IMG/VR virus record: IMGVR_UViG_3300031772_000299
Coordinates: 1 to 23,123 of that record
DNA length: 23,123 nucleotides
Strand: one strand, 5' to 3'
DNA from: a virus
The position numbers and the translations under genes are program-made. Shown here one piece after another: positions 4,790 through 21,177 of this stretch. Within the stretch, counting starts at the first letter, position 1. Each line of letters opens with the position of its first letter. Under the pieces are notes generated by a model, which was not told the DNA's origin, ran no database searches, and saw only the letters and a program-made list of their open reading frames with translations.

Positions 4790-5856
4790 GCGGCGGGTGT
4801 GGATGTGGTATAGAAGATCCGTTCCAGACGCTCGAAAAAGCTGTTAGGCTAAGAACAGAGTGTGAAGACACCCTGTTATCGCTGAGAGTACCCATCGCCA
4901 AGGCATCCGTTCTGAACCCATTTAGGCAGAATGACTTCGTCCGCCTTGAGGCAAGACTGACAGCCAAGCTGATAAAGGCATTCAACTCGACCGCATCGGA
5001 CGAGATGGATACGCTTCTGGCCCTCATTAAGGGGGTCGACTTAGCAAAGCCAGAATCGGTCCAGTTTTTCATAGCGGAGAGTTCGAAGGTCTTGAAGGGA
5101 TTAGATCGAGCAGTCGCACGAGAGGTAACTCCGGTGCTCAGTAAGGCGATAGATGAAATGTACAAAGCCGCGAATCTACAGACTTCCAAGGATCTATTGG
5201 ATACAGGGAAGTCAACGGACAAGCGGCTATTGGCGTTTGGAGGCCGTGACGAAAGGGTCATAGACCTTCTCAACAAGAATCAGGCCTTTCACGTCTCTGA
5301 GGGATACCGGAACAGGATTTCGGATTTCGATACCAAGATTAGAGGCACCCTAAACAAAGCCCTAGAGGAAGGGTGGTCAAGACCTGAAGTCGCCAAGGGG
5401 TTGACTAAAGCAATGGGGTCGACAATCCAAGACGAGAATTATTGGAACATCGTCGGGTCTACTTGGCTTAACAGATCTCGGAACTGGGGTGCCCTGGAAG
5501 CTATGAGCGAGGCCGGTATTGAGCAGTTTGTCATTATCGCAGTTATGGACGAAAGAACGTCGCCCATTTGCCGTACAATGAACGGAAAGACTTTTAGTGT
5601 AGGCAAGCAGATCGCTATTATGGAAGAATCGGCGCAGTCTGATAGCCTGGACGAGCTAAAAGCGTCGACTCCATGGCTCACTAGTCGGAAAGATGAGGAT
5701 GGTAAAGAGGTGGTTGGTCTTTGGCGTTCCAACGGGAGATTCTCAGAGTTGTACCGAGAGGGGGTAGCCCAAAGATCCGAGGGTAGTATCCAGAAACTGG
5801 GTGTAGCACTTCCTCCCTATCACGGTTTATGCAGAACCACAGTCGGAGTAGCGTAA
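4786..5856 (+). CDS. Minor head morphogenesis protein (Mu F / SPP1 gp7-like)
   Basis: A 356-residue protein whose ATG lies inside the ATGA junction with the portal. The C-terminal half carries the Mu F-like domain (PF04233). AVMDERTSPICRTMNGK at about 252-268 and LPPYHGLCRTT at about 342-352 supply the conserved Asp, two Cys and His of that family, which may form a metal or disulfide site. Proteins of this family associate with the portal, are packaged in few copies inside the head, and influence DNA exit. The N-terminal half is helical. The very first residues contain a compact Cys cluster (GCGCG, residues 4-8), which is unusual and could bind metal, though that is speculative. The Mu F core is shortened by a charged insertion at 280-330 that separates its two conserved motifs. 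Confidence 0.88.
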   Translation: MSGGCGCGIEDPFQTLEKAVRLRTECEDTLLSLRVPIAKASVLNPFRQNDFVRLEARLTAKLIKAFNSTASDEMDTLLALIKGVDLAKPESVQFFIAESSKVLKGLDRAVAREVTPVLSKAIDEMYKAANLQTSKDLLDTGKSTDKRLLAFGGRDERVIDLLNKNQAFHVSEGYRNRISDFDTKIRGTLNKALEEGWSRPEVAKGLTKAMGSTIQDENYWNIVGSTWLNRSRNWGALEAMSEAGIEQFVIIAVMDERTSPICRTMNGKTFSVGKQIAIMEESAQSDSLDELKASTPWLTSRKDEDGKEVVGLWRSNGRFSELYREGVAQRSEGSIQKLGVALPPYHGLCRTTVGVA

Positions 5857-6638
5857 TGAGAGAAAAGATTATTAAAGCACTGGTTTTCGATAGCAGTCTT
5901 TTCAGTTGCGCCTCAGCTATAGGGTGGGCTCATAGTGTTGGGTTTCACTCGAGTATCCCTCCGCAGATAGTCGAAAAGTGCGTCGTCCTCCAGCAGGCAG
6001 AATTCGAAGAAGGGACTACCGAAGGGATGGAAGTTTTCCCTATTACCTATGGAGTAGTCGGCATCGGCGTCGTTCTGCGGTCTGATTTGCTAAAGTCATT
6101 CGCATCAAACCCCGACGCAGGAGTAAGAAACAAAGCGGGTCTTGGCGAGAACAAAGAAGTTTTCAACGGCGAAGGCTACTCTAATACAGCTCCAGGCGTC
6201 ACGAGGCTGGTAGGGCAGGAACCGGGGTCCAATAAGAAGCCGGTTGAAAAAATCGAAAAAAGGTTCGCTTTCGCAAAATCTTACGTAGAGAAAAAAATTG
6301 TCATAGGGGCAGTTTACGTCCCTTACGATCCAGAGGACGAAACCACCATAGATCTCCACGGTCACGCAGCTTCCGCTGAAGATATCGAAAAGGCGGCGTA
6401 CGGTTTCATGGAGGAGTTGAAGAACTACTCAATAGACCGGCAGCATAACAAGTTGCCCGATTATGGGTACGTCGTCGAAAGTTATATCGCAAAGTCAGGC
6501 GATCCTTTGTTCAAAGAGGGGACTTGGGTGGTCGGCGTAAAAGTAACCGACGATGCAACGTGGGAAAAGATCCAAAACGGCGAGGTAACGGGGTTCTCGC
6601 TGGGAGGATCTGCCGTCCTTCAAGAACTGGTAGCCTAA
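5856..6638 (+). CDS. Prohead serine protease, XkdF-like
   Basis: A 260-residue protein. The start at 5856 shares one base with the previous stop (TAATG) and has CGGAG at about 5845-5849; an upstream in-frame ATG at 5829 lies inside the minor head gene and lacks such a site. Residues about 138-255 match the phage serine protease XkdF family (PF14550). The signs are GAVYVPYDPED, DLHGH, an alpha-helical IEKAAYGFMEEL, DRQH with His197, YVVESYIA, GTWVVGVKV and GFSLGG with Ser248. His197 and Ser248 are the likely catalytic pair by analogy with the S78 clan. The enzyme would cleave the scaffold and possibly the capsid protein inside the prohead. Residues 1-75 form a separate small domain (start ALVFDSSLFSCASAIGWAHS), resembling a segment seen at the N-terminus of other phage head proteases. 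Confidence 0.85.
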   Translation: MREKIIKALVFDSSLFSCASAIGWAHSVGFHSSIPPQIVEKCVVLQQAEFEEGTTEGMEVFPITYGVVGIGVVLRSDLLKSFASNPDAGVRNKAGLGENKEVFNGEGYSNTAPGVTRLVGQEPGSNKKPVEKIEKRFAFAKSYVEKKIVIGAVYVPYDPEDETTIDLHGHAASAEDIEKAAYGFMEELKNYSIDRQHNKLPDYGYVVESYIAKSGDPLFKEGTWVVGVKVTDDATWEKIQNGEVTGFSLGGSAVLQELVA

Positions 6639-6650
6639 TAGGAGCAAAGG

Positions 6651-7919
6651 ATGAAAGTACCGAAAGCATTTATGAGAGATTTGCAGGTTGATTTCGTGTC
6701 TCTTGTGAATAAGGGAGCGAACAAGCAGAGGTTTGCGATTTACAAATCAGCCGAAGGAATTGCAGTCGAGGCTAAAGAAGCAATTGCAAAAGCTGCAGAG
6801 ACGGTGAAAGTTCCAGTAAATAAATACGGAGAAATGGAAGTATTCTACGATGATTACGGGAACCCAATTCCTATCGGGAGTTCGTTTAAAGAGGTGCTTC
6901 AGGCCCGCGACACTCAGGCTCAAATTGATCAGAGTCGGTGGGCTATGGAGGATTACTTTCACATCCTCAAGTGCGTTCTAAGGGGAGTAGTTCAAGACAC
7001 AACGCAGGTTGATAAGTCAGCCGCCATGAAAAAGGCGATCGACGAGTTCAAATCTGCGACAGTCACTTTGTTCAAGGGTCTGCCCGTCGAGAAGGCGGCA
7101 GAGTTGCTAAACGTAGGAGGAGAAGGTATGCGAAATTCGGGCAATCAGTCCAACGCTGCAGCTCCGTCTGAAGTCAACAAGGCTAACGGCAGCGGCGGAA
7201 GTGTGGCGGGCATTAGCTCCAACCCACAGTCTGAAGCCCAAAACCGTACCTCCGACGCTCAGCCGGTAGTTGGTATCACCAAGGAAGAAGCCGTCAAGTT
7301 GAACAAGGCGGACGCCACGGAGATGCTCAAGAAAGTCCAGAGTGATATCGAAAAGGCCGGAGAGGTGGCAAAGATCCTTCAGGAGGTCCTGAAAACAGGA
7401 ACAGACCAGGATCTTGGAACGGGACGGGATACCGTGGCTTCGAATGGTGCCACAGGGACGGTCGCTCCCGATCATGCCGCTAGCGCAGCGGCCACGACTC
7501 CTGCTACCGAGAATGTAAACAAAGCTGCCGGTTCAGCGAACGACGCTGCAATTGGGGCTGATGCTTCAGCAACTCCTGGCCCCGGCCCGGCCAAGTCAGG
7601 AGAAGTCAATATGATGGGTCAGATTCAAAAGATGTTCGAGACTTTCGCTACGACCATGACCGTGGCTATGGACGGAAAGATCTCGGGCGCAGTTGCTCTG
7701 CTAAAGGAGGACGTCAATAAGGCTATCGAGTCTAAGTTGAACCCGCTAGCCGCCAACGTCCAGAAATTAGAGAAGTCAGCAGGTTTGTCCAATTCTGATC
7801 CTTTCGATTTTGACACTGAAGGCGAAAAAAAGCGTCTTACTGTGACCAAGAGCGACGACCAGGAGTGGGCAAAGGTTACTGGTAATTTAGGTTCCCTGAG
7901 TAGGTCGGCCAAACGCTGA
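6651..7919 (+). CDS. Scaffold-like capsid assembly protein
   Basis: A 422-residue protein between protease and capsid, with AGGAG at 6640-6644 before the ATG. Residues 1-35 (DLQVDFVSLVNKGANKQRF, then AIYKS) resemble the N-terminal segment found in several XkdF-type head proteins. Residues 36-155 are mainly helical. Residues 160-320 are low complexity, rich in Ala, Asn, Gly, Thr and Pro, and probably disordered apart from a helix at about 208-248. Residues 321-378 form a predicted long helix (MMGQIQKMFETFATTMTVAM onward). The tail ends in a basic segment (SLSRSAKR). Helical, charged architecture with disorder and a basic C-terminus is typical of internal scaffolds, which bind the capsid protein and are then cut by the protease. 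Function is inferred from position and composition. Two internal ATGs with strong ribosome sites lie in the same frame (see separate entries). Confidence 0.65.
   Translation: MKVPKAFMRDLQVDFVSLVNKGANKQRFAIYKSAEGIAVEAKEAIAKAAETVKVPVNKYGEMEVFYDDYGNPIPIGSSFKEVLQARDTQAQIDQSRWAMEDYFHILKCVLRGVVQDTTQVDKSAAMKKAIDEFKSATVTLFKGLPVEKAAELLNVGGEGMRNSGNQSNAAAPSEVNKANGSGGSVAGISSNPQSEAQNRTSDAQPVVGITKEEAVKLNKADATEMLKKVQSDIEKAGEVAKILQEVLKTGTDQDLGTGRDTVASNGATGTVAPDHAASAAATTPATENVNKAAGSANDAAIGADASATPGPGPAKSGEVNMMGQIQKMFETFATTMTVAMDGKISGAVALLKEDVNKAIESKLNPLAANVQKLEKSAGLSNSDPFDFDTEGEKKRLTVTKSDDQEWAKVTGNLGSLSRSAKR
7115..7130 (+). promoter_or_regulatory. Internal in-frame translation start in scaffold gene (M160)
   Basis: TAGGAGGAGAAGGT precedes the ATG at 7128-7130, the strongest Shine-Dalgarno-like sequence in this gene. 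The ATG is in frame with the 422-residue protein at residue 160. It would yield a 263-residue C-terminal product that begins exactly where the low-complexity part starts. Lambda C/Nu3 is the known precedent for a scaffold made from an internal start of a head gene. The sequence shows the site; use of it is inferred. Confidence 0.5.
7598..7613 (+). promoter_or_regulatory. Second internal in-frame start in scaffold gene (M321)
   Basis: AGGAG at 7598-7602 lies eight bases before an ATG at 7611 that is in frame with the scaffold gene (residue 321); another ATG follows immediately. It would release a 102-residue protein consisting of the final long helix and the basic tail, the part expected to contact capsid protein. 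The site is visible; its use is an inference. Confidence 0.4.
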
Positions 7920-7983: not shown

Positions 7984-8982
7984 ATGATCCCGAATCGCAC
8001 GCTTCTTGAAAAGGCCGACCTCGCAGTAGGTGATTTAGTGACCGATGGTGGCTATTTGCTACCCGCCCAGGCAGTCCGGTTCCTTCGGGTTCTGATTGAT
8101 GAGCCTACCCTCATCAAGCAAGCTCGAGTCGTCCCAATGCGGGCTCCAAAGCAAATGATCGAAAAGATCCGCTTCGGAAGCCGTATCCTCCGCCCAGGCA
8201 CCTCCGGTTCTGCTCTGTCCGGCGGCGATCGTGTTAAGCCGGATCTCGGTTCGGTGGAGCTCGACGCCGAGTTGTTCAAGGCTGAAGTCCGGTTGAACGA
8301 CGAGACTCTCGAAGACTCGATCGAACGTGGCGACCTTAAGGAAACAATCCTTGAGCTGATGGCGCAAAGGGTTGCTCTCGATATGGAAGAAGTGATCGTC
8401 CGAGGCGATACCGCTTCCGGTGATTCGTTCCTTGCGACCTTCGACGGTTTGCTAAAGCAAGCTGACGCGAACGTGGTCGACCATTCGACTGATCCTATCG
8501 ACACAAAGACCACCAAGGGCCTGTTCTACAAGCTCTTGAAGGTGATGCCGACCGAGTTCAAGCGCGACAAGCGTTCCTTGATCCACTATGTCAGCACAAA
8601 CATGGAAATCGACTACCGCGAGACTCTGTCTCAGCGTGCGACAGCTATGGGTGACAAGTACGTCTCGGATGACGCTCCTGCCACCACAGCAGGCGTGCCC
8701 ATTCAGGATTTGCCAACAATGCCAGACGGACAGGCGCTGTTGACCAACCCCCTGAATATCAACGTAGGCGTATGGCGGAAGATCAAGGTCGAGACAGACA
8801 AAGACGTGTCTGCGGGCCAGTTCATCACCGTATTGACTGTTCGTTTCCATTCTCGATTTAGCGTGAAGGAAGCGGTCGTCAAGGCTACCGGAGTTACAGT
8901 TCCAGTTGCATCCAATACCAGCGTCGGCCTCTCGGCGGGTGGACTTGGTGGACGCATTGGTCCTTTCACTTTCACAGTTTAA
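7984..8982 (+). CDS. Major capsid protein, HK97 fold
   Basis: A 332-residue capsid subunit with AAAGGAG at 7969-7975, eight bases before the ATG, consistent with high expression. It begins directly in the mature-type segment (TDGGYLLPAQAVRFLRVLID) and has no long N-terminal delta domain, which fits the presence of a separate scaffold gene. Later features typical of HK97-fold capsids include a long spine helix (LKETILELMAQRVALDMEEV, about 119-138). They also include a P-domain with the TMPDGQALLTNPLNINVGVW stretch, and a late strand, QFITVLTVRFHSRFSVKEAV, near the end. The length matches the smaller HK97-like capsids. It stands about 65 bases after the scaffold gene and is followed by a GC-rich hairpin. 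Codon use looks more GC-rich than in the genes after it. Confidence 0.9.
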   Translation: MIPNRTLLEKADLAVGDLVTDGGYLLPAQAVRFLRVLIDEPTLIKQARVVPMRAPKQMIEKIRFGSRILRPGTSGSALSGGDRVKPDLGSVELDAELFKAEVRLNDETLEDSIERGDLKETILELMAQRVALDMEEVIVRGDTASGDSFLATFDGLLKQADANVVDHSTDPIDTKTTKGLFYKLLKVMPTEFKRDKRSLIHYVSTNMEIDYRETLSQRATAMGDKYVSDDAPATTAGVPIQDLPTMPDGQALLTNPLNINVGVWRKIKVETDKDVSAGQFITVLTVRFHSRFSVKEAVVKATGVTVPVASNTSVGLSAGGLGGRIGPFTFTV

Positions 8983-10772: not shown

Positions 10773-13700
10773 GTGGGAAGATTAGCAGAGGTAAATCAGA
10801 CTTTAGCTATCGGCTTAAAGCTGTTCGATGGAGCTACTAATCAATTCCCTAGAGTCAGGGTGTACAACAGTGCTGGAACGGAGCAGACAGCAGCTCCTTT
10901 CAGCAGTCCTATTGCGCTGACACACAGGGCAGTTGGATTTTATAGCGCAACCGTGACGCCTACTGCTGAAGGCGAGTTTTTCATAGTCTATCAGGTGTAC
11001 TCCGACGCTGGGTTCACGACGCTAAATAAGAAGTACGAAGAGGTGATTGACGTTGCTGCTATCAGGTCTGTAGACCAGGATTTGAGTACCCTGCTTACCA
11101 GAGTAGGCACGCCAGTAGGAACAGTATCCAGCGATATCGCAGGTATACAGACAAAGCTCGGTACACCAGCAGGGGCTAGCGTTTCGGTGGATATTCTGTC
11201 TAATTTCACAAGACTTGGCGCACCAGTCGGTGCTTCCATCTCCGCAGACCTTGCGGCTGTAAAAGCGGATACCGGATCAATCAAGACGACGGTCGATACG
11301 AACCTGAATGCGACCGTTAGTTCTAGGCTCGCAACAGCCTCCTATACTGCACCCGATAACGCCACTATAGGCACTATCAACACGAAGATCGGCACGCCTT
11401 TAGGCACCGTATCGACCGATATCGCAGGCGTTCAAACCAAGCTCGGCACTCCAGCCGGGGCTAGTGTTTCGGTAGACGTTGCTGCAGTCAAGGCGGATAC
11501 TGGATCTATCAAGACGACGGTTGATACGAACCTGAACGCGACCGTTAGTTCTAGGCTCCCAACTTCCGGATACACAGCACCCGACAACGCCACCATTGGG
11601 ACAATCAACACGAAGATTGGCACACCAGCCGGTGCCAGCGTTTCGGCAGACGTTGCTGCAGTGAAGGTCGATACGGCAGCGATTCTTGTCGATACAGGAA
11701 CTAGCGGCGTTGTAGTTGCTACAGCCGACCAGGACGCAATAGTGGATAAGGTTTGGGATGAGCTAGCAGGCTCCCATGTCGCGGTCGGATCATTAGGGGC
11801 TAACCTCGACGCAAAGGTATCGACTAGAGCGACTCAGACCAGTGTTGACGCGATTCAAAACAATACAAATTTCGTTGGGGTGGTCCAGAGTCCACTGATC
11901 AAGCCCGCGTCTGGGAGTGTGAACTACAAGTTCTACGGACGCCTGTTCGATTCTGCTGGAAGCCCAGAAGATCCAGATACGAATTTAATGAACATTCGAA
12001 TCGAGACAGTAGGTGGTTCGGTCGTCGTTGCTACAGCAGCTATGACGAGAACGGGGGTAGGGCAATACGAGTATTTGTATTCAGTATTGGCAGCGGACGC
12101 AGAACGTCCTCTCGTAGTGTTCATGGAGTACGCAGAATCTGCGATAGCATTCCAGCATATTAGAACCACAGAGGTTCAGGAATTCGAGACGACTCTGGAC
12201 GCTATCAAGTTGGACACGACAGCGATCAAAGCTAAGACCGACCAGCTCGCATTCACTGCGACTCGAGTAAATTCAGTGATTTCCACTACCCAGGAAGACG
12301 ATATCGTAGATAAGGTCTGGGACGAGCTTCAGGCGGATCACGTCGACGTTGGCTCGCTTGGAGCGAGACTCGACGCAACCGTTTCCAGTAGAGAGTCTGA
12401 CGTCGCAGCAGGGGCGAGGAATACTGCCACTCTTACAGCTATAGGAGGCGTTGGGACCACCGCTAGCGTCATAAACGCAAAGATAGGCGTTCCTGTCGTC
12501 AGCGTTTCCGCCGACATTGCCGCAGTCAAAGCGGTAGTTGATGGAATTAGCATGGGCACGACCCCTCAAGTCATTGCAAACGCGGTTTGGGACGAACTTG
12601 CTTCAGCCCACACTGTTTTAGGCAGCTTCGGAAGGGGGCTAGCCATTCTCTTTGGTGACGCTTCCACGTTGAACGCAGTCGATATCGCTATAGAGGTCTG
12701 GAATTCGGCGGTTGCGTCATTTGGAGCAGGCGGCACCTTTGGGGAGAGAATTACCAACATCAAGAATCGCCTCGATATCGTGGACGGCAAAACGGATCTT
12801 TTGCTTAACGAAAGGCTCCCACTGGCTCGGGCAGAGAGGATCGACCATCTCGACGCCAATATCTCAAGCCTCGAGACGGAGGCCTCAGCTAGCAGCCGAG
12901 CGGCAACCGATCAAGCTGAGCACGATATTACGCAGGCCGCACTCGATGCAGTGCTCCTAGTAATCGGCACACCGTTCCCAGAATTGAGTCAGATCATAGC
13001 TTTGCTTGAGAACGTAACTTACGGATTGGCAAACCTTCGGATCCAGCTAGACGGGAAAGCATCCCTGGCTGGTCAGGTAGGGCAAACCGCACAGCTTACA
13101 AGTATCCAGGACGCCCTCGCCAACGCAACGACAGGGTTGGCCGCCCTCCTAGCCGCAATCGTCAATCAGACTGCTCCATTGACCGACGTTACGTTTGGTT
13201 TGGCAGCTATCAAGTCAGAGCTGAATCTGAAGTCGACGACAGCCCAGGTAGGGACCATCCCGACTTCGTCTCAAATTCGAGACGCCGTGTGGAACCAAGC
13301 GACAGCAGCATTGACCATTATTGGGTCGATCGGGAAACTGATTGCCGACAACCTGAACGATACTATCAGCTCTCGGTCTAGTTCCGCCCAAGCAGTAGCA
13401 ATTGCGGCGCAGTTAACTAGCGTCCTAACAAGGCTCGACAACGCCACCTACGGCCTAGCAGCCTTGCAGGTTGAACACGACAACACCCAGGCATCATTGG
13501 GTGTCGTAGATCTTGCAGTTGCGAACGTAGACACAGATTTAGCCACCGCTAGGGCAGATATTTTGGCAGCGATTTCGGCTCTAGTTAATGGTACGCCAAC
13601 GATCATCGCAGCATTGGATGTCATCAAAGGAGGTGGCTTCGTCGCAGGGGACGATCTGCATTCCATTCGTCTTGCAATAGGAACGGGCTCCGCAACTCTT

Positions 13701-14522
13701 GCCAAGCAGGACGACATTCTCGCAGAGTTGGCTGATATCAAAGGCGGGGGGTTCAACGTCCTCACAGATTCACTTGAAAAAATCCGAGACGAGTCGACAG
13801 TCATTGAGGCCCAGTTAGCTCAGGCCCGACTTAGCATAGAAACGAAAGTCGACGTTGTTGATGATAAGGTCGACGCCGTGGACTCGAAAGCTACTGGAAT
13901 TGATAATAAGCTGACGAACATCACCTACGGCTTGCCAGCAATAAAATCAGCAGTCGATTCAGGCTTTTCTTCGAATAGCATGGGGATAGCAATCATTTCT
14001 GGTCAGGTGTCAGCGGTGAACGGGCTGATTGTAAGCCTTAGCGCCCAGCTCTCGCTTGCAGAGGCGGGTATCCTTTCAGAAATCCAATCCCAGGACACAG
14101 CAGCTATCCAGGTAACTGTTAATGGAATAGTCAGTCTCTTGCAAAACGCAACGTATGGACTTTCTGCTATCAGGACAGCTCTGGATTCGTTCAGGACAGC
14201 CGAACAGATCGACGATGCTTCCAAGGATACTCTGCTCAATTCAATCGTCTCCAGTATCAGTACAGTGGTCCTGGCATTGGACGCCATTAAAGGCGTAGGT
14301 TTCAGTGCAGGAGATTCACTAGCACAGGCTTCGATTAAGTTAGCTAGCATTTTGGCGGAGTTTCCGTTGCTTGCGACGAGCGTCCAAGGGGCCGCGATCA
14401 TTTTGCGGCTTCATGAGCTAGCCGATGGGAATACAGGTTCGTTCGATCCGGATACTGACTCTCTCGCTGCTATCGGAGAGAAGCAGGGCTTTATCGAGGG
14501 TTTTGAAGCCGGGGGGGCTTAA
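10773..14522 (+). CDS. Giant modular repeat protein, probable virion fibre
   Basis: A 1249-residue protein starting at a GTG (10773) with AAGGGG at 10761-10766. Residues 1-95 form a beta domain. Residues about 121-291 carry repeats of the type LGTPAGASVSVDIA in a strict 19-residue register. Residues 378-465 form a second beta domain. Five VWDE-type repeats follow one pattern (e.g. VDKVWDELAGSHVAVGSLG at 324, again at 512, 602, 639, 836). Six repeats of the type LDNATYGLAAL lie at 744, 782, 803, 888, 1047 and 1123, and three IKGGGF motifs lie at 951, 989 and 1172. The whole is rich in Ala, Ile, Val, Asp and Thr with few Cys. Such Ala/Val-rich register repeats suggest a long trimeric rod or coiled fibre. 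It lies between capsid and connector, so a head or neck fibre is more likely than a distal tail fibre. It is not the tape measure, which is at 21339. Confidence 0.7.
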   Translation: MGRLAEVNQTLAIGLKLFDGATNQFPRVRVYNSAGTEQTAAPFSSPIALTHRAVGFYSATVTPTAEGEFFIVYQVYSDAGFTTLNKKYEEVIDVAAIRSVDQDLSTLLTRVGTPVGTVSSDIAGIQTKLGTPAGASVSVDILSNFTRLGAPVGASISADLAAVKADTGSIKTTVDTNLNATVSSRLATASYTAPDNATIGTINTKIGTPLGTVSTDIAGVQTKLGTPAGASVSVDVAAVKADTGSIKTTVDTNLNATVSSRLPTSGYTAPDNATIGTINTKIGTPAGASVSADVAAVKVDTAAILVDTGTSGVVVATADQDAIVDKVWDELAGSHVAVGSLGANLDAKVSTRATQTSVDAIQNNTNFVGVVQSPLIKPASGSVNYKFYGRLFDSAGSPEDPDTNLMNIRIETVGGSVVVATAAMTRTGVGQYEYLYSVLAADAERPLVVFMEYAESAIAFQHIRTTEVQEFETTLDAIKLDTTAIKAKTDQLAFTATRVNSVISTTQEDDIVDKVWDELQADHVDVGSLGARLDATVSSRESDVAAGARNTATLTAIGGVGTTASVINAKIGVPVVSVSADIAAVKAVVDGISMGTTPQVIANAVWDELASAHTVLGSFGRGLAILFGDASTLNAVDIAIEVWNSAVASFGAGGTFGERITNIKNRLDIVDGKTDLLLNERLPLARAERIDHLDANISSLETEASASSRAATDQAEHDITQAALDAVLLVIGTPFPELSQIIALLENVTYGLANLRIQLDGKASLAGQVGQTAQLTSIQDALANATTGLAALLAAIVNQTAPLTDVTFGLAAIKSELNLKSTTAQVGTIPTSSQIRDAVWNQATAALTIIGSIGKLIADNLNDTISSRSSSAQAVAIAAQLTSVLTRLDNATYGLAALQVEHDNTQASLGVVDLAVANVDTDLATARADILAAISALVNGTPTIIAALDVIKGGGFVAGDDLHSIRLAIGTGSATLAKQDDILAELADIKGGGFNVLTDSLEKIRDESTVIEAQLAQARLSIETKVDVVDDKVDAVDSKATGIDNKLTNITYGLPAIKSAVDSGFSSNSMGIAIISGQVSAVNGLIVSLSAQLSLAEAGILSEIQSQDTAAIQVTVNGIVSLLQNATYGLSAIRTALDSFRTAEQIDDASKDTLLNSIVSSISTVVLALDAIKGVGFSAGDSLAQASIKLASILAEFPLLATSVQGAAIILRLHELADGNTGSFDPDTDSLAAIGEKQGFIEGFEAGGA
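11259..11624 (+). repeat. Direct DNA repeat inside the giant protein gene
   Basis: Two copies (11259-11396 and 11487-11624), offset by 228 bases, encode residues 163-208 and 239-284. Within about 50 bases around the shared ACGAACCTGAA the copies differ at only a few positions. The near-identity at synonymous sites shows a recent duplication, or recombination that homogenised the copies, and not merely protein-level constraint. Confidence 0.85.
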
Positions 14523-16101: not shown

Positions 16102-16565
16102 AAACAGGTGGTTGGGTGAAGTACGCTGCTGTTCTGAAACGTGGGGCAGATAAGGGTCATCAAGAATTAGCAAAAGCTGTAGCAAAAGCAGCAGTTACGC
16201 TTGCTAGCGACGTCAAAAAGAACATAGTTAGCGGAGGCGAGTTAGCTGGTGTCCCATTCACTCCAAACGCGCCTTCGACCATAGCCCGAAAGGGTTCGTC
16301 CAAACCCTTGATTGACTCAGGGGACATGATGAAAGCGGTCGCGGCCAGGAAAGAATCGCCGCTCGTATGGTTCGTCGGGATTGCGGGCAACGAGCAATCA
16401 GAAGGTGTTAGCATAGTAGAGTACGCACGAATCCATGAGTTCGGGTTGATAAGCGAGGACGGCCAGATGACGATTGCGAGGCCCTTCTTTTTCCCGACAG
16501 TAGATAAGAGGCGAGACGCCTTGCAGCAACAGATCAAAGAAACTATGGAGAATCTTTTCAAATGA
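16098..16565 (+). CDS. Tail completion / virion morphogenesis protein (gpS/gp10-like)
   Basis: A 155-residue protein with an ATGA junction to the previous gene. It has an N-terminal helix rich in Ala and Lys (ELAKAVAKAAVTLASDVKKN). Then come the stretch FTPNAPSTIARKGSSKPLID, SGDMMKAV, a strand VWFVGIAG, YARIHEFG at about 113-120, and IARPFFFPT at about 131-139. The order TIARKG, PLIDSG, HEFG, ARPFFFP is typical of the phage virion morphogenesis/HK97 gp10-like families that close the top of the tail. Length is normal. Strong context: neck proteins before it and a probable tail terminator after it. Confidence 0.8.
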   Translation: MKTGGWVKYAAVLKRGADKGHQELAKAVAKAAVTLASDVKKNIVSGGELAGVPFTPNAPSTIARKGSSKPLIDSGDMMKAVAARKESPLVWFVGIAGNEQSEGVSIVEYARIHEFGLISEDGQMTIARPFFFPTVDKRRDALQQQIKETMENLFK

Positions 16566-17173
16566 CAGAAATCAGGTCGCACAGGACGGAGGTGATTCGG
16601 CAGTTGATAATTCAACTACGTGCCGCATTGCCGATATTCAATGCGAACGTGATTTACAATACAGACATCGACTTTTCTAGCACAGGCATCGGCATCGACC
16701 TAGCAAAGCTGCCAGCGATGTATATGCTTGGGCCTAATATGCCTCGGAACGATTTGTTCACAAGCCACCAGAAACCATCAGAGAGATACGGAGCGCCGCT
16801 TCCGGACTCGACAGTGCCTTCCAAGTTTAGGACTTTCACGGCAGAAGAGGCGATCGACCTTGTTTTTCAGTTGGTTATTCTCTGCAATCACCAGGATACT
16901 TTTCTGACCATTACGGACAAGGTTCACGCCTACTTTATGAATGGCAAGAGTGTGTCTGCAGAGAAATGTCCAGGGGAACCGGCTAGGGGAACCAATGCTT
17001 ACGAAATAGACCTCGTAGGCCGATTGTCATCGACGCTTATGGCGAATCGAAGCAATCTGAAACAAGCCGTTGGCCAGTTGATTGTTAGAGGAGTCCTAGT
17101 AAGTGACGGCCAGATCTTCCAGGAGTCCGGAGTCGCTGCTGAAGTTCCTATTTTGACGACGAAACTTATTTGA
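16562..17173 (+). CDS. Probable tail terminator / neck protein
   Basis: A 203-residue protein starting in an ATGA junction. It has an N-terminal helix (EVIRQLIIQLRAALPIF), strands, then a helical and strand part (AEEAIDLVFQLVILCNHQDT). A later section contains FLTITDKVHAYF and a final beta part ending VPILTTKLI. The layout of a helix followed by a mixed alpha/beta body, and its place after the tail-completion protein and before the sheath, fit the tail terminator proteins of myoviruses. I found no residue-level signature, so the assignment is by context. It may bind the top ring of the tail tube. Confidence 0.5.
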   Translation: MTEIRSHRTEVIRQLIIQLRAALPIFNANVIYNTDIDFSSTGIGIDLAKLPAMYMLGPNMPRNDLFTSHQKPSERYGAPLPDSTVPSKFRTFTAEEAIDLVFQLVILCNHQDTFLTITDKVHAYFMNGKSVSAEKCPGEPARGTNAYEIDLVGRLSSTLMANRSNLKQAVGQLIVRGVLVSDGQIFQESGVAAEVPILTTKLI

Positions 17174-19833: not shown

Positions 19834-20298
19834 ATGCCAGTACAAGGATCGCCAAAAGACTTTCTGAAGCGTTACAAATTCATAATCGAATGCGACCGGC
19901 TCGGCGACACAGCATTCCAAAAGTGCAGTGAGATTGAATCGGATATCGAAGTCAACGAATACGCTGAAGGCGGCGCTATTTTCAACGAGAAAGACGCGGG
20001 AAGAGTAACCTTTACCAACGTCACTCTCGAGCGTGGCCAGACAAGCGACGACAACGATATGGAGTCGTGGCATCTTGAGGCCGCTGCCGCAGGAGACGAC
20101 GTTGGAGGTGTTGGCGATAGTTACAAGACTAATGCTGATATCGTTAACCAGAAGCGAGACGGTACCACTGCTCGTCGATATCGGATGTTTAATGCTTGGC
20201 CAAAGCGAGTTAAGGTAGGTCCTTGGGACAACACCAGTTCCGAGCATACCTTTAGCGAAGCCGAGATCGTATTCAACTACAGTATTCGAGTCCCGTGA
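19834..20298 (+). CDS. Tail tube protein (T4 gp19-like)
   Basis: A 154-residue protein with GGAGGAG at 19821-19827, six bases before the ATG, one of the strongest ribosome sites in the window, as expected for an abundant subunit. The pattern is a T4 gp19-type tube (PF06841): SPKDFLKRYKFIIECDRLGD start, AFQKCSEIESDIEVNEYAEG, then VTFTNVTLERGQTSD, and a final set of strands (ARRYRMFNAWPKRVKVGPWD, then EAEIVFNYSIRVP). Length is typical. It stacks in hexameric rings to form the inner tail channel inside the sheath encoded just upstream. Confidence 0.9.
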   Translation: MPVQGSPKDFLKRYKFIIECDRLGDTAFQKCSEIESDIEVNEYAEGGAIFNEKDAGRVTFTNVTLERGQTSDDNDMESWHLEAAAAGDDVGGVGDSYKTNADIVNQKRDGTTARRYRMFNAWPKRVKVGPWDNTSSEHTFSEAEIVFNYSIRVP

Positions 20299-20328
20299 GT
20301 TAGGTTGGACGGTATGCCAAGAAAATTA

Positions 20329-20345
20329 GGGGCCTAACCAGCCCC
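20329..20345 (+). terminator. Possible weak terminator in the 20299-20439 gap
   Basis: Stem GGGGC (20329-20333) with GCCCC (20341-20345), a 7-base loop, followed by GTTTG. It is the only structured element I see in the 141-base gap between the tube and chaperone genes. Five pairs with few Ts is weak, so this is tentative. No convincing promoter is visible in the same gap. Confidence 0.3.
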
Positions 20346-20439
20346 GTTTGAAATTCCTGATTGAGCGTAAATTAGAAAGTCTGCGACCAAATTCTAGTAA
20401 ACCGCTCGATTGTAGAAACAGAACCACTGGGGTAAAGAC

Positions 20440-21177
20440 ATGGAAATACACCTTCCCGGCCTGGACCAGATCGTCAACGTACGCCCGCTCAAAGTAAAAG
20501 AAATAAACCTACTTACAGACCGCGCCTCCCTTCAGAACGGGGAAACCGTTAACAGGCTCTTAAAGGATGCTCTAGTTGATTCTTTTATCGACCCCATAAC
20601 CCTATTGGACGGGGACCGAAACGCGATCCTGTTTGGAGTACGCCGCGCTACTTGGTTAGACGACTATGATATCACCGTCTCATGCCCAGCTTGCCGCCAG
20701 AGACAGGACTTTACAGTCGATCTCAGCAATATCCAGGAAAAGTCAGGCGATAGAGATTTGATCAAGAAACGCTACGAGGAACCCAACTTCCTAGCGCCAT
20801 TCCAATTTAAGGGATGTGGGTTGACTGCTTGGTGGCGGTTTACGGACGGGTCCGACTTCAAGAAATTGATTGATATCAATAAGAAAAAATCGAACCAGCT
20901 CGCAAGTGAATCGCTAGCCCTCCGAATCAAAAGGATCGAAGGATCTAAGGAAGGCGTCCCGATAAAGAGGGTTCTTGAGGAGCTCGACGCCTCAGATATG
21001 AGTGATTTCAACGAATATTACGACGAATGCGCCCCCGGTCACGACACTAAGGTCGATCTTATCTGTACGAATGGCCTTTGCGGCGCTGAGTTTACTGTCG
21101 ATATGCCGATTGAACCTGAAAATTTTTTCAAGCGCAGTGTACGAGGGAGACGCTCCTCGATTGTAAGTTCTACGTAA
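20440..21177 (+). CDS. Tail assembly chaperone (T4 gp26/T4_baseplate-like), zero-frame product
   Basis: A 245-residue protein between tube and tape measure, where the tail assembly chaperone is expected. The start at 20440 has only a weak GGGGTAAAG site. The body resembles T4-type baseplate/chaperone proteins (PF12322 type): IHLPGLDQIVNVRPLKVKEI start, a helix-rich middle, and a zinc-ribbon-like pair of cysteine sites, CPAC at 82-85 and CTNGLC at 209-214, separated by a long insertion. The last conserved part is FTVDMPIEPENFF, ending at residue 230. Directly after it lies a slippery sequence, and the remaining zero-frame tail is only 15 basic residues. A minority of ribosomes should slip to give the extended form (see next entries). 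Such chaperones coat the tape measure during tail assembly. Confidence 0.85.
   Translation: MEIHLPGLDQIVNVRPLKVKEINLLTDRASLQNGETVNRLLKDALVDSFIDPITLLDGDRNAILFGVRRATWLDDYDITVSCPACRQRQDFTVDLSNIQEKSGDRDLIKKRYEEPNFLAPFQFKGCGLTAWWRFTDGSDFKKLIDINKKKSNQLASESLALRIKRIEGSKEGVPIKRVLEELDASDMSDFNEYYDECAPGHDTKVDLICTNGLCGAEFTVDMPIEPENFFKRSVRGRRSSIVSST

Follow-up and report, generated by a model that had tools for sequence, protein, structure and literature searches.

In phage lambda, the scaffold Nu3 is made from an in-frame internal start inside the longer gene C. The overlap of C and Nu3 is the subject named in the title of Shaw and Murialdo (1980), as cited in PMC8508860. The locus described here raises the question of whether a scaffold gene that lies apart from its protease gene might likewise give more than one protein. 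The window, i.e. the whole stretch of 23,123 bases analysed, carries a head module that runs from terminase through portal, Mu-F-like protein, XkdF-type protease and a 422-residue gene to an XkdG-like major capsid protein. Its genes and gene parts of concern are the following.

5829..6638, plus strand: XkdF-type prohead protease gene, apart from the scaffold gene (PF14550 and phrog_3017)
6651..7919, plus strand: scaffold-position gene of 422 residues (main start ATG 6651, AGGAG, gap 6)
6693..6746, plus strand: N-terminal tag, residues 15-32 (FVSLVNKGANKQRFAIYK), from the phrog_3017 match
6834..7088, plus strand: helical domain, residues 62-146 (HMM of RcZahn-type scaffolds, E 6.7e-5; hhalign probability 88%)
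7984..8982, plus strand: major capsid protein gene, XkdG-like (phrog_1623, E 7.1e-91)

The product of 5829..6638, an ORF whose start was set mechanically and has no SD, matches PF14550 at residues 147-263 (E 1.2e-23) and the protease part of phrog_3017 (positions 37-155, E 1.1e-32). The capsid product shows 42% identity with the annotated major capsid protein of Agrobacterium phage JP1 and also matches annotated XkdG-type capsid proteins. A PF14550 protease thus adjoins an XkdG-like capsid gene, as in the XkdF/XkdG (PBSX-like) module. The VSLVxxxAN tag of that module is also present, but on the scaffold gene, where residues 8-49 match positions 5-46 of phrog_3017, the XkdF family (E 1e-8). The peptide at the head of this gene, FVSLVNKGANKQRF, also opens the fused protease-scaffold of PBSX-type phages. 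The PBSX-type XkdF system (Bacillus, Listeria and Enterococcus prophages; PBP180) has the tag, the PF14550 protease and the XkdG-like capsid protein in common with the window, although tag, protease and scaffold form a single gene in Bacillus phage PBP180 and Bacillus-type prophages, whereas in the window 5829-6638 and 6651-7919 are separate ORFs, with the protease split off and the tag staying on the scaffold. What the window has is a related, split form of the PBSX XkdF/XkdG module. Behind this XkdG-like head lie T4-like tail genes at 19834-21177 (gp19 tail tube, T4 baseplate family), which makes the arrangement a mosaic, and between the head and tail genes there is a 1249-residue ORF (10773-14522) of repeats such as GTPAGASVSVDVAAVKADTGSIKTTVDTNLNATVSSRL.

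Five phage isolates whose protease is likewise split off have a gene in the same place, between protease and major capsid protein: Agrobacterium phage JP1, Rhizobium phage RHph_I4, Stenotrophomonas phage DLP_5, Aeromonas phage HJ05 and Rhodobacter phage RcZahn. In all five and in the window the tag, VSLVxxxANxxxF, heads the gene after the separate protease, and this tag-bearing gene lies directly upstream of the capsid gene. In split-type phages the XkdF-type tag therefore goes with the scaffold and not with the protease. From its place, its helices and its low complexity, the product of 6651..7919 is presumably the scaffold of a phage with a separate prohead protease gene. The AlphaFold model of the 422-residue protein is poor (mean pLDDT 42.9) and was used solely for helix boundaries; its helices, at low confidence, lie at residues 78-84, 88-115, 120-143, 146-161 and 319-376. 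A PDB search returned coiled-coil matches only. The motif KAGRxM(S/A)xxRLxxLxxAL, which recurs before the final coiled-coil in relatives (e.g. L137, L140, L024), is absent in the window.

Ribosome-binding leaders precede most gene starts in the window, and for this reason the host is taken to read such leaders. Two in-frame ATGs inside the scaffold gene also carry them.

7114..7127, plus strand: leader TAGGAGGAGAAGGT ahead of ATG 7128, with AGGAGG at 7115-7120
7128..7919, plus strand: proposed 263-residue product from M160, with linker, middle helix and C-terminal coiled-coil (from the leader and the post-domain position)
7598..7602, plus strand: AGGAG leader ahead of ATG 7611
7611..7919, plus strand: possible 102-residue product from M321, with the final long helix and basic tail (from the leader and the low-confidence helix 319-376)

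A preliminary description of this DNA had proposed that the gene gives three nested products from its own start and these two ATGs, apart from the protease gene. Its arithmetic is borne out: ATG 7128 is codon 160 and ATG 7611 is codon 321 of the ORF 6651-7919, both have the leaders described, the nested products would have 422, 263 and 102 residues, and both starts sit in the scaffold gene. A further ATG, at 7614, directly follows ATG 7611. Leader strength was taken as the ungapped duplex with the 16S tail in kcal/mol. ATG 7128 (-12.58 kcal/mol, gap 7) is joint best of the 109 in-frame internal ATGs in 20 window genes, in a tie with ATG 2969, and ATG 7611 (-9.32 kcal/mol, gap 8) is seventh. 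ATG 2969 (AGGAGG, gap 11), rather than TTG 2939, is probably the true start of the portal gene. Of all the internal candidates in the window, an in-frame TTG at 16604 in gene 16562-17173 has the strongest leader (GGAGGUGA, gap 8, -17.2). At the level of sequence, then, the window has what characterizes lambda C/Nu3 in one respect, an in-frame internal start with a ribosome-binding leader; in the defining feature of that system, a start within the protease gene itself, it departs from lambda, since the protease gene ends upstream of the scaffold gene that holds both ATGs.

Such leaders might be accidental. It could be that only the full-length 422-residue scaffold is made and that GGEG and SGE in low-complexity linkers mimic leaders by chance. 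When the window gene was shuffled synonymously (2000 trials), a leader at least as strong as the observed one was kept in 27% of trials at M160 and in 73% at M321, and some internal ATG matched the strength of the M160 leader in 42%. The GGEG and SGE peptides thus largely force the leaders, so that the window alone proves nothing at the codon level. RNA accessibility around the internal starts of the window shows nothing unusual locally. Chance nevertheless accounts poorly for the strength at M160: among 1300 internal ATGs of capsid genes from 140 split-type loci, a single one has a leader of -12.5 or better, while 57 reach -9 or better, the range of M321. Together with the comparisons given below, this makes a gene with a single product unlikely in our judgement.

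Relatives were needed for further comparison. Single searches with the scaffold protein gave no relative among viral contigs or phages, and a single search with the capsid protein gave none in viral contigs; loci were therefore collected by capsid alignments. Scanning of 296 loci left 255 after removal of 6 without an upstream ORF, 33 without the tag motif and 2 without a start, i.e. in 255 of the 296 the capsid gene is preceded by a gene with the tag at its head (some contigs carry several locus names; L034, L200 and L216 are one). At 70% identity the 255 genes reduce to 149, comprising 9 fused and 140 split ones. A smaller set of 215 loci had 3 without an ORF, 19 without the motif and 1 without a start. 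The whole-family tests of late starts and of compensation used 106 split genes, and the counts for post-tag starts, domain models and the capsid-gene control used 140. The true start of each gene was taken as the best leader within 40 codons upstream of the tag, which leaves the internal region under test untouched.

Across the split-type scaffolds an internal start recurs directly behind the tag. Of the 140 genes, 110 have an ATG 15-45 codons past the beginning of the tag motif, and the bin from +20 to +24 alone holds 76 ATGs, where the bins from +45 to +95 hold about 5-17 each. A post-tag ATG with a leader of -7 or better occurs in 98/140 genes, compared with a mean of 54.9 and a maximum of 67 in 200 synonymous shuffles; at 40% non-redundancy the figures are 60/93, with a shuffle mean of 34.1 and a maximum of 42. 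Every codon phase is represented among these leaders (29, 21 and 16), and the peptides that they encode vary (KESKM, KEGGEEM, GGEDLSM, KEKTM and others), so that it is a nucleotide signal and not the residues that is kept. This is strong sequence evidence that a conserved internal start splits the tag from the scaffold body in the family. It also bears on the idea that leader-like sequences pause ribosomes and aid the folding of successive domains rather than initiating translation. Their position at domain boundaries in the low-confidence model would suit pausing, but in relatives leader and start codon stay paired, spaced as at a start, although the residues encoded there differ, and we regard pausing as very improbable. 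On a quick capsid tree (136 of the 149 genes; start labels taking in GTG and TTG besides ATG), the post-tag start needs about 20 gains or losses, fewer than with shuffled labels, and is thus clustered but labile. No report on internal starts of this split-type scaffold family was found in the open-access literature searched.

The window itself departs from this pattern. The scaffolds of JP1, RHph_I4, DLP_5, HJ05 and RcZahn resemble that of the window in the split protease, the tag at the head and the capsid gene next to it, and they have the post-tag internal start (in DLP_5, AAGGAG with a gap of 6), whereas the window lacks it. In the window the range 15-45 codons past the tag motif holds only a GTG at +36 (-2.56) and no leadered start, and an ATG at tag +46 has a leader of -1.36.

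A start behind the helical domain, where M160 lies (14 residues past the domain end), occurs in one part of the family. Genes of the KGG clade (L218, L221-L223, L227-L230, L232-L234 and others) have a second internal start in this position. Its leader is, for instance, AAGGAGG or GGAGGUGA, and where the case is clearest the start stands 126-171 codons ahead of the stop. Members such as L218, L221, L227, L228, L233 and L234 have two strong internal starts per gene, and three nested products per gene are predicted for this clade. Like this second start, M160 is an ATG with a strong leader (-12.58) at most 60 codons past the helical domain. In the KGG type a post-domain ATG at -9 or better occurs in 14/21 genes against a null expectation of 10.5, a count that 2/200 shuffles reached; it leans in favour because 12 of the 21 genes served as seeds of the domain model, having been chosen for a strong late start, and among the 9 others 2 (L235 and L245) show one. 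If an ATG 60 or more codons past the tag is counted as late, 14 of the 140 split-type genes, the window included, have a late ATG whose leader reaches -12.5 or better, and the other 13 genes have it at tag+212 to +266, 10 of them being KGG-model seeds. This clustering of very strong late leaders behind the domain also speaks against a scaffold made in full length only. The helical domain of the window is nearer to the RcZahn type (E 6.7e-5) than to the KGG domain, which it matches weakly (hhalign probability 4.6%); between the two types themselves the match is at 41%.

Broader versions of the post-domain start did not hold. As a general feature it was rejected, since the RcZahn type has it in 2/28 genes against a null of 2.65. 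Enrichment of late internal starts in the whole family was rejected likewise, with 80 leaders in 106 genes compared with 93 in synonymous shuffles, and this shortage of late leaders agrees with a single full-length product. Late starts do not compensate for a missing post-tag start either, being found in 8/33 genes without one and in 19/73 with one.

The preliminary description had called for a check of whether both leaders are conserved in relatives, and they are not kept in the nearest ones, L034, L089 and L217. The nearest to the window by scaffold sequence is L034, and the two also fall together on the capsid tree, with long branches and a support of 81. In L034 the post-tag start is a GTG at tag+39, whose leader scores -13.85, while its ATG near the position of M160, behind the domain, has a weak leader and lacks one of the M160 type. 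L089 and L217 have no strong ATG leader at the place matching M160. These gaps again agree with a full-length product only. The M321 leader has no clear counterpart in close relatives and varies freely among them, the outcome that the preliminary description had named as telling against its proposal. The idea of nested starts thus survives as a property of the family, in view of the 98 post-tag starts and the second start in one subgroup, while the two particular leaders of the window are not conserved in its nearest relatives.

For M160, the absence of a post-tag start in the window, the nearest relatives without its leader, the lack of enrichment in the RcZahn type and the 27% of synonymous shuffles with an equally strong leader have to be counted against it. 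We consider it likely to be a real internal start nonetheless, because of its post-domain position, the clustering of late leaders of the -12.5 class there and the rarity of ATGs as strong in capsid genes; it has the leader strength and position of the KGG second start, even though the leader is missing in the nearest relatives. M321 is uncertain. We think it rather improbable that this phage makes all three products of 422, 263 and 102 residues. Both ATGs are leadered at good spacing and the KGG genes with two strong internal starts provide a precedent. In fused PBSX-type genes, too, an internal ATG is frequent in a place like that of M321, about 90-115 residues from the stop. The strength of the M321 leader is, however, reached by the 57 capsid-gene ATGs mentioned above, close relatives offer no equivalent of M321, and the signal in the fused type is not significant: statistical support for an internal start in fused PBSX-type genes was rejected, as 5/9 non-redundant genes against a null of 3.2 was reached in 45/300 shuffles. 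Many fused xkdF genes (L007, L095-L136) have a leadered ATG at the boundary between protease and scaffold, e.g. AAGGAG before KTGKETEEM, which is possibly a Nu3-like start.

Our preferred reading, which we hold to be probable, is that one scaffold gene with its own start and an in-frame internal start gives a long tagged and a short untagged scaffold, and that the main internal start in this phage is M160. Most likely, ribosomes would start at 6651 and at 7128, and the long and short scaffolds would have the C-terminal coiled-coil and tail in common. In most relatives the internal start would lie directly past the tag, and one clade would add a start past the helical domain; in this phage the main one would be M160, past the helical domain, with M321 maybe as a weaker third. 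On this reading the gene would follow the strategy of lambda C/Nu3 in a form not seen before, placed in a scaffold gene separate from the protease. In both cases a scaffold would come from an in-frame internal start and the C-terminal part would be common to both products, but the long product of lambda is the protease, whereas that of the window would be a scaffold with a short tag, the protease gene lying separately upstream. The comparison with lambda drawn in the preliminary description is therefore apt as an analogy, although the fused XkdF genes of the PBSX type are the nearer parallel. According to what PMC6316719 states of them, genes 24.1 and 26 of phage SPP1 have dual in-frame starts, the internal AUG having its own RBS, as proposed for the window gene; they differ in being lysis genes whose two forms differ by 9 and 2 residues and not by scaffold domains.

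The ratio of tagged to untagged scaffold presumably matters. For example, the tag or the N-terminal domain might mark a minor form that touches the portal or nucleates the shell, and the short form might fill the shell. Contact between scaffold and portal is described in PMC10275583 as needed in other phages to build the portal into the shell, and a minor tagged form may be the one that makes this contact. A wider hypothesis, to which we give slightly less than an even chance, is that internal ribosome-binding sites, conserved and placed at domain boundaries, let this widespread scaffold family make a tagged and an untagged scaffold, or in some lineages three nested ones, from a single gene. 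The tag would have stayed on the scaffold when the protease split off, so that the long form is defined by the tag and not by the protease; the dose of the tagged form would set portal incorporation or shell size; and this phage would have exchanged the post-tag start for one behind the domain.

It is the scaffold and not the protease that the conserved N-terminal tag goes along with, and the system offers a direct way of testing what sets scaffold stoichiometry where scaffold and protease are separate. If the internal starts are used, the annotation of the main scaffold would be wrong in many phages, since gene callers predict a single protein, and reconstituting capsids with the full-length protein would employ the wrong mixture.
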